This document shows positions 2,937-4,946 of a stretch of 63,442 nucleotides of DNA, piece after piece. A program made the translations under genes and the position numbers. The notes beneath the pieces are model-generated. The model did no database searches, was not told the DNA's origin, and worked only from the letters and a program-made list of their open reading frames with translations. The stretch covers positions 1-63,442 of the forward strand of contig JASUTE010000008.1 in the NCBI GenBank assembly GCA_030445745.1, read 5' to 3'. Position 1 is the stretch's first letter, and each line of letters opens with the position of its first letter. Source of the DNA: Candidatus Cloacimonadota bacterium (lineage in GTDB: Bacteria; Cloacimonadota; Cloacimonadia; Cloacimonadales; TCS61).

Positions 2937-4946
2937 ATGAAGAAAATATTGTTATTGCTTGGTCTTGTAATTTGTTCCAGCCTACTTTTTTCATTAGGAA
3001 CACTTCGAGTTGAATCTATAAAAGAACTGCCGGCAGAACATATGAACCTGGAAGTTTACGATGCTGATGGTAAGTATGCACCTGTACTTATTGTGAAAAC
3101 AGAACTAAAAGGTGTTGGTATACAGAATATTGGCCGGCCTACCAAGCATGCTCCAGAATATAACCCACAAAAAAATGAGTATAAGTTCTACATGAACGAT
3201 AACCAAAGAGTTGTGGAGATAACCCACTCTAAATACCAGCCCCTGGAAGTGCGGCTACTGGCAGATTTTGGCATAAACGTGAAAGCGAAAAGGGTCTATG
3301 AGCTGGTATTGGATGATAAACCCGAAAAGGAATTTGTTAATGTGGTTATTATTTCCGATCCCTCTGATGCTACCAAAATAATTGACGATAAAGACATGGG
3401 AACTGGACAAAGCTTTGAGCTGGCTATTGGAAAACATACCCTGAAGCTACAAAAAAGCGGCTATAAATACATTACCAAAGATATTGAAGTTACCAGACGT
3501 AAAACTTTGTTTAATAACCTTACCTTACCTGAACAAGAACCCGTGATGCTAACCATAAAATCTGAACCCACGGGTGCAGATATTTACATTAACAACGTAT
3601 TGGAAGGAGCTACTAACAAGCAGCTTTTTAAGTTTCCTGATACCTATAATCTCCGTTTGGTGAAAGATAAATATGACACTATTGAAAGGACAATTACGGT
3701 TACTGAAGATGGTAGTAATAACTTCAATTATACTTTAAGAAAAAACACCTCTACTCTTACTATCCAAACCACACCTGCTAACTGCGATATATACGTTAAC
3801 AATGAAAAGATGAGTGGCAACAGCAAAGATGTTTCCGCTGGGATGTACAAGGTGGAAGTAAAGAAGGAAGGTTATTACGACAACAGCCGTACAGTAGATG
3901 TGCAAAAAGGCCAAAACAAAACCGTAAACATAAGCTTGGAACAGAAAACAGGTAAATTACAATTTGTGATAGAACCCATGGAAGCTCAGATAACCCTGAA
4001 GCTGGGAAACAAAACAGTAGAAACGTGGACTGGCTCTAAATATTTCAGTTCATTACCTGTTGGCAGCTATACCCTTACCGCTGGTTGCGATGGTTACAAA
4101 AGCCAAAATAAGCAAGTTGTAGTAAACTTGGATGAGACCACAAAAATAGATATAGCTTTGGAAGAAGGCTCCGATATACCCGCAAGCATGGTTTTCGTGC
4201 AAGGCGGCAGCTTCCAGATGGGCAGTAATAGCAGCGATGCAAATGATGACGAGCAACCGGTTCATACAGTTAGCGTTGATGATTTTTTTATTGGTAAGTA
4301 CGAGGTAACGCAGAAAGAATGGCGAGAAGTAATGGGGGATAATCCTTCTCGGTTCAAAGGAGATAATAGACCCGTAGAAAATGTAAGCTGGTATGATGCC
4401 GTAGAATTTTGTAATAAAAAAAGCGAAATGGAAGGGTTGGAGAAATGTTACAGTGGGAGGGGTTGTGATTTTTCTAAAAATGGTTATAGACTGCCCACCG
4501 AAGCGGAATGGGAATATGCCGCTAGAGGCGGAATTGAAAGCGATAATGCGAATTATCGCTATGCTGGCTCTAATGATATAGATAAAGTAGCTTGGTACTG
4601 GAAAAACTCAGGAGACACAAGACTATCTGGTAATTGGGATTATGGAAAAATAGATAATAATAACTGCAGAACCCACCCAGTAGGCCAAAAGCAGCCCAAT
4701 GAGCTTGGGATATATGATATGAGTGGTAATGTAGGGGAGTGGTGCTGGGACTGGTATGATAGCAATTATTATGCATATAGTCCGAAAAACAATCCGCAGA
4801 GACCTTCATCGGGCTCTTACCGCGTGAATCGTGGTGGCAGCTGGGCCGACTCCGCCGACGGCTGCCGGGTGGCCGGTCGCAGCGGCGGCGATCCCGACCG
4901 CAGCTACAGCGGCATAGGCTTTCGCGTTGTCCGCAGTTCAAAGTGA
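2937..4946 (+). CDS. Secreted PEGA-repeat protein with C-terminal FGE-sulfatase/C-lectin domain (DGR-type target)
   Basis: A 669-residue exported protein. Residues 1-19 form a signal peptide. Residues 20-125 are a domain shared with the 7,808 paralog (GTLRVESIKELP, then RLLADFGINVKA). Several PEGA repeats follow to about residue 410, with motifs such as SEPTGADIYINN and TPANCDIYVNNEK. Residues ~418-669 form an FGE-sulfatase domain (GGSFQMGS, YEVTQKEW, GYRLPTEAEWEYAARGG, SGNVGEW, RGGSW, GFRVV). In this family the domain is either an oxidase or, as here in a repeat-rich surface protein, usually a ligand-binding C-type-lectin fold. The last 35 codons are far more GC-rich than the rest (68 of 90 bases at 4831-4920) and look like a DGR variable region. 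The start is supported by AGGAGAG seven bases upstream of ATG. Confidence 0.88.
   Translation: MKKILLLLGLVICSSLLFSLGTLRVESIKELPAEHMNLEVYDADGKYAPVLIVKTELKGVGIQNIGRPTKHAPEYNPQKNEYKFYMNDNQRVVEITHSKYQPLEVRLLADFGINVKAKRVYELVLDDKPEKEFVNVVIISDPSDATKIIDDKDMGTGQSFELAIGKHTLKLQKSGYKYITKDIEVTRRKTLFNNLTLPEQEPVMLTIKSEPTGADIYINNVLEGATNKQLFKFPDTYNLRLVKDKYDTIERTITVTEDGSNNFNYTLRKNTSTLTIQTTPANCDIYVNNEKMSGNSKDVSAGMYKVEVKKEGYYDNSRTVDVQKGQNKTVNISLEQKTGKLQFVIEPMEAQITLKLGNKTVETWTGSKYFSSLPVGSYTLTAGCDGYKSQNKQVVVNLDETTKIDIALEEGSDIPASMVFVQGGSFQMGSNSSDANDDEQPVHTVSVDDFFIGKYEVTQKEWREVMGDNPSRFKGDNRPVENVSWYDAVEFCNKKSEMEGLEKCYSGRGCDFSKNGYRLPTEAEWEYAARGGIESDNANYRYAGSNDIDKVAWYWKNSGDTRLSGNWDYGKIDNNNCRTHPVGQKQPNELGIYDMSGNVGEWCWDWYDSNYYAYSPKNNPQRPSSGSYRVNRGGSWADSADGCRVAGRSGGDPDRSYSGIGFRVVRSSK
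4845..4913 (+). other. Putative DGR variable region (VR1)
   Basis: These 23 codons lie between RGGSW and IGFR at the end of the FGE domain. Twenty-one of them end in C or T and none is AAC or AAT, as expected if AAY codons of a template were changed at their adenines. Compared with the paralog, the only residues kept are C, R, R and P (plus the flanking W and GFR), and their codons (TGC, CGG, CGC, CCC; flanks TGG, GGC TTT CGC) contain no adenine. Adenine makes up only 8 of the 69 bases. This is the pattern left by adenine-specific mutagenic retrohoming. Confidence 0.72.

Follow-up and report, generated by a model that had tools for sequence, protein, structure and literature searches.

A DGR-written variant at the end of a PEGA-FGE gene of a Candidatus Cloacimonadota bacterium, probably frozen by the loss of its cassette

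The DNA analysed here (the window) is a stretch of 63,442 nucleotides from a Candidatus Cloacimonadota bacterium and represents contig C35 of a 2.04-Mb draft assembly of 38 contigs that is 99.3% complete. The target gene at 2937-4946 on the forward strand is followed on the same strand by a conserved DNA element, a short scar, an IS200/IS605 element, an LPP20-like gene and a paralogous FGE domain. It encodes a protein of 669 amino acids, which is composed of a signal-like N-terminus, PEGA domains and a C-terminal FGE-sulfatase/C-type-lectin domain (Pfam, 1.6e-61). The best PDB match of the protein is TvpA (2y3c, E=1.3e-44) and not an FGE enzyme. FGE enzymes have an active-site cysteine pair within an RGGSxxCxxxxC stretch; in the alignment with 6muj, RGGSWADSADGC of the target protein retains one cysteine only, which argues against a sulfatase-modifying FGE enzyme. 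By analogy with TvpA, the variable codons at the end of the gene would fall in a C-type-lectin fold, and the protein is probably surface-exposed and ligand-binding. A structure prediction from three sequences reached a pLDDT of only 29 and was rejected as evidence.

The 3' end of this gene was originally predicted, from the letters of the window, to be the variable region (VR) of a DGR, in which AAY codons of a template are turned into NNY codons. The codon TGG at 4842 and the codons GGC TTT CGC at 4917-4925, given as its borders, were found at these coordinates. In 4845-4913, 21 of the 23 codons end in C or T, whereas 348 of the 646 remaining codons of the gene do so (Fisher p=2e-4). The predicted count of such codons was reproduced; the description of all 23 as variable was too broad, since C, R, V, R, and P within the block are fixed. 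The codons of the conserved residues W, C, R, R, P, G, F, and R are free of adenine, and 68 of the 90 bases in 4831-4920 are G or C, both as had been proposed. The most GC-rich 90-mer of the 63-kb window starts at 4830 (76.7%, window mean 38.9%), and the 72-nt block 4842-4913 has roughly 75% GC in a window of about 39%. The enrichment extends over third codon positions (GC3 of 0.91 in the block vs 0.39 in the FGE body) and codon positions 1+2 (0.74 vs 0.45). The excess of Y-ending codons, taken alone, would be modest evidence. Because several FGE homologues of relatives that do not carry the signature (L047, L049, L052, and L054) show ordinary GC at the C-terminus, a GC-rich and Y-ending end is not a general trait of FGE C-termini.

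DGR cassettes were found in relatives of the same family, usually in the order PEGA-FGE target, HRDC (in some), Avd, RT and AAY-rich template, and their Avd and HRDC proteins were confirmed by Pfam (PF22296 bAvd, HRDC). The RTs of these relatives contain the motifs IGNLTSQ and YMDD, and their best PDB match is 8ub7, which we take to be the BPP-1 DGR enzyme. A DGR RT query matched 28 of the 107 genomes of the order (E<=1e-20). In G028 (contig C52), a template in AAY codons, RGGSWNNNAKNCRVANRNNNNPDNSNNNLGFR, lies immediately 3' of an RT with both motifs, and DGR-type RTs are also present in G004, G006, G014, G018, G026, G034, and G061, most of them adjoined by a template. The VRs of intact cassettes differ from their own templates by 10-23 changes at 31-36 adenines and by 0-1 changes at 61-66 other bases, and NNY-type C-termini are frequent among the FGE genes of the family. 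The gene order in G061 is target, Avd, RT, template and LPP20-like gene; in the syntenic contig L084, the target and the LPP20 gene are present, with neither a DGR nor an IS between them.

The cassettes were searched against Rfam, and no family scored above threshold. The spacer after the DGR templates of the order contains a conserved stem around AGTAG...CGAA, about 100-124 nt past the template (L019:1221-1240, L073:713-732 on the reverse strand, L059:2745-2762, L108:2747-2768 and equivalents). Its 9-bp helix is paired in 86.5% of the cells and shows compensatory changes in 8 of 9 pairs, without an Rfam match; it is possibly an RNA element that recruits RT-Avd. A second template type (NNLRSWYRNNNNPTNTNNNIGFR) overlaps a long RT frame at its 3' end (L061:2583-2684 and L072:1145-1240; G014:C130 and G026:C108), and a pair of HEPN and nucleotidyltransferase genes lies immediately downstream of a DGR template in G028:C52 (L056:1268-1935).

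The VR core (4842-4913, forward strand) was compared with the templates of these relatives. All 40 non-adenine positions in the template of G061, a genome of another genus, are preserved in the core, against changes at 24 of 32 adenines (p=1.3e-12); the differences are confined to adenines of a relative's template, the own template being absent. When the same 40 positions were scanned along the window, the mean agreement was 8.4 (sd 2.9) and the next best site reached 23/40. The G006 template differs from the core at one of 40 non-adenine positions, and all other templates at 5/43 or worse. The T-ended codons of the core, GGT at 4875 and GAT at 4890, coincide with AAT codons of the G061 template. 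The VR is located near the 3' end of the FGE/C-type-lectin domain, as is expected of a DGR target. Exact matches to the masked pattern were restricted among the 107 genomes of the order to the VRs of the window and of G061 and the templates of G061 and G006. This adenine-restricted divergence from a real template establishes, by sequence comparison, the DGR origin of the VR. The mutagenic retrohoming of an FGE/C-lectin target, as originally proposed, is supported by the match to a relative's template, by the RT, Avd and template that lie beside homologous genes in relatives, and by TvpA as the nearest structure.

The FGE bodies of the window and G061 genes share 136 of 191 residues, but of the 46 four-fold sites that can be compared just 12 are identical, which indicates saturation; therefore, plain vertical conservation does not explain the VR block. 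Either a template of the G061 subtype was present recently, or it was transferred between genera. The RTs of G061 and G006, which belong to different genera, are 95% identical, which suggests that such cassettes are passed between genera. At its 3' end, the VR has an IMH-like segment (ATAGGCTTTCGCGTTGTCCGCAGTTCAAAGTGA) with a putative extent of 4914-4946 on the forward strand; similar 3' ends are found in the G028 template (CTGCTCCGCAGCTCAAA) and in the VRs of G011, G029, and G034. The G061 template ends differently (GGTTTTCGTTTC vs GGCTTTCGCGTT in the window), and the own template is absent for an IMH comparison. Because the 3' end in the window resembles the G028 type and the core matches the G061 type, the lost template must have been mosaic, and it would have joined a G061-type core to a GGCTTTCGCGTTGTCCGCAG-type 3' end.

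The DNA behind the VR has kept elements that are shared with relatives. An inverted repeat formed by GTTCAAA (4936-4942) and TTTTGAGC (4959-4966) is a candidate DGR target hairpin (4936-4966, forward strand), as predicted by the pairing of its arms and a fold with RNA parameters, and the same arms are found 3' of the VRs in G011 and G034 (L014, L017). An inverted repeat after the VR was reported as a target determinant in BPP-1 (PMC3240598). A conserved post-VR DNA element extends over 4926-5057 on the forward strand; it is 87% and 84% identical to the downstream flanks in G011:C99 and G029:C37, respectively, and occurs in a single copy in the own genome. Its conservation exceeds that of the coding region. 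About 24 of its codons share a frame (MEKINEGRIY..NGIDRFLTEYL-like); a coding gene was considered and rejected, as the frames are short and, by eye, inconsistent past about 24 codons.

Downstream of this element, a scar within 90 bp reads MQFKLFVIPV-GGWKKERGK-MPKRYGYLYEK, in cassette order, in frame and on the correct strand, with remnants of about 10, 9, and 10 residues. They are assigned, all on the forward strand, to the start of the HRDC accessory gene (MQFKLFVIPV, 5069-5098; tentative), the C-terminus of Avd (GGWKKERGK, 5099-5125), which fits the GGW[K/I/L/R] Avd end of relatives, and the start of the DGR RT (MPKRYGYLYE, 5126-5158). Across the six frames of the window, no other 10-mer scores as high as the first against the HRDC starts of relatives (34, next 28), and this remnant is weak when taken alone. 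The RT remnant scores 51 against the RT starts of relatives (next best 29, six frames of the window), and its DNA aligns with the RT starts of G034 and G061. Over 62 nt, the DNA of the Avd/RT junction remnant is 74% identical to the junction of G034 (L062, E=6e-4). The RT remnant (MPKR type) and the template core indicate one DGR subtype.

The RT remnant breaks off near 5153-5155, where it enters an orphan right end of IS200/IS605 (5153-5300, forward strand). This end is a 95-97% direct repeat of 5784-5935, a second copy that comes after the transposase gene (Y1_Tnp, 5377-5820, forward strand; PF01797, 1.3e-28; NF033573) of an apparently complete element. TGAAAAAA is shared at the RT/IS joint, which is consistent with a microhomology-mediated deletion. 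The LPP20-like gene (5951-7762, forward strand) is the syntenic flank; it is identical at 422 of 603 positions (70%) to its counterpart after the template of the intact cassette in G061. The order target-Avd-RT-template-LPP20 of G061 thus corresponds to target-scar-IS-LPP20 in the window, where about 1 kb of debris is left. The conserved template-spacer motif is absent from the window, which indicates that template and spacer are gone. A cassette once lay directly 3' of the target and has since been deleted, and its scar is directly visible.

A template copy with AAC or AAT codons, which the original prediction suggested should be sought in the own genome, was not found: BLAST and a masked pattern, in which every non-adenine base of the VR was also allowed to be A and up to 3 mismatches were tolerated, retrieved only the VR itself from the own assembly. 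The DGR RT query gave no match in this assembly at E<=1e-20. Its sole RVT_1 match, on C37, was rejected as a DGR RT, being a group II intron RT with a GIIM domain. The own assembly thus lacks the RT and the template of a complete, active DGR, and beside the target the accessory proteins Avd and HRDC are present only as the fragments in 5069-5125. The joint lack of template and DGR RT, which had been named in advance as speaking against a DGR, holds for the own assembly and not for the relatives. The phage collection yielded nothing, and viral contigs contained no match to the VR core pattern.

It is very probable that the end of the gene is a DGR-written variant that was frozen through the loss of its cassette. 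The variant is probably frozen because the own assembly holds no template or DGR RT and the local cassette was deleted. From a template transcript with a core nearly identical to those of G061 and G006, a DGR RT and Avd would have made a cDNA in which the adenines were read at random, and this cDNA would then have replaced the 3' 72 or more nt of the PEGA-FGE gene; the individual enzymatic steps of retrohoming are assumed from BPP-1. Deletions would have taken most of HRDC and Avd, nearly all of the RT, and both template and spacer, in a presumed order of events in which the last junction fell inside the IS200/IS605 element. The target site and the inverted repeat persist, and the variant would stay frozen unless a DGR acts in trans.

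Such action in trans, by a DGR outside the assembly (an unassembled template, a plasmid, a phage or another chromosomal contig) that still diversifies the VR, is considered improbable. It would agree with the intact target site and inverted repeat, with a VR core that shows no non-adenine drift from a related template, and with the many relatives that have VR-like FGE genes distant from any detected RT, and a draft of 38 contigs could lack an unbinned or unassembled DGR. However, the assembly is 99.3% complete, the RT searches yielded only the group II intron enzyme, neither a masked template in the own assembly nor the core pattern in viral contigs was found, and the local cassette is visibly destroyed. 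It also seems unlikely that the variant was imported whole by homologous recombination from a DGR-bearing relative, with the scar recording an older and unrelated DGR loss. The fit of the core to a template of another genus despite saturated gene bodies, and the near identity of the G061 and G006 RTs across genera, by which cassettes seem mobile, would be expected in that case, but a search of the 107 genomes yielded no donor VR that carries these variable residues, and the common subtype of RT remnant and template core fits local writing.

If no DGR had acted, the GC-rich, Y-ending block would have to reflect codon bias or an accident of composition at the conserved end of an FGE domain; this could account for a modest excess of Y-ending codons in a C-terminus that belongs to a conserved fold. 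This reading is already very unlikely given the template comparison, with full agreement at the 40 non-adenine positions against a maximum of 23 elsewhere in the window, and the normal GC of homologues without the signature and the RT/Avd remnants adjoining the VR bring its probability close to nil.

The frozen variant belongs to a known phenomenon, because target genes without machinery have been described in Treponema denticola, cyanobacteria and nanoarchaea. In T. denticola isolates without RT and template, the target genes were judged to be remnants of a core DGR (PMC4891356). TvpA of this species resembles the window protein as an FGE-type C-type-lectin target with a C-terminal VR (PMC4891356), whereas the window protein adds PEGA domains and its scar of HRDC, Avd, and RT fragments with an IS200 end is still legible. 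In cyanobacteria, remnant VR homology without an RT and IS200/IS605 transposases near variable proteins were reported, and it was proposed that the machinery was removed once a good variant had arisen (PMC7517822); unlike in these degraded DGRs, the IS end in the window directly abuts the RT start, to which it is fused. In nanoarchaea, adenine-mutagenised VRs without an RT were read as fossils or remote targets, in a passage that describes no scar (PMC4372165); these VR fragments belong to another host domain and to other target proteins. The cassettes of the order share Avd, an RT with YMDD, template, IMH and post-VR inverted repeat with BPP-1 (PMC3240598, PMC12875486), but their RT precedes the template and some add an HRDC protein. 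Fossil DGRs are therefore not new; within a limited literature survey, the novelty here is an unusually readable scar.

One genome and its relatives suffice to recognise a receptor written by a DGR even after the machinery is lost, and a single scar allows the target, the lost cassette and the IS element all to be read. Such targets escape RT-based DGR searches. The proposal that a DGR is discarded once a good variant exists becomes testable through VR haplotypes of scarred and intact strains. It is improbable that the loss was selected, with a deletion associated with IS200/IS605 that took out RT, Avd and template and thereby locked in a useful binding variant, and that such locking recurs across the order; if true, it would be a bacterial parallel to the fixing of an affinity-matured receptor.

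The paralogous FGE domain lies at 9488-10210 on the forward strand. Compared with the G061 template, its C-terminus is changed at 24 of 35 adenines and at 23 of 61 other bases, and it may be an old, decayed VR. The FGE paralogues are near-identical, by eye, over 4430-4610 and 9735-9915 despite an overall protein identity of about 53%, which suggests gene conversion.
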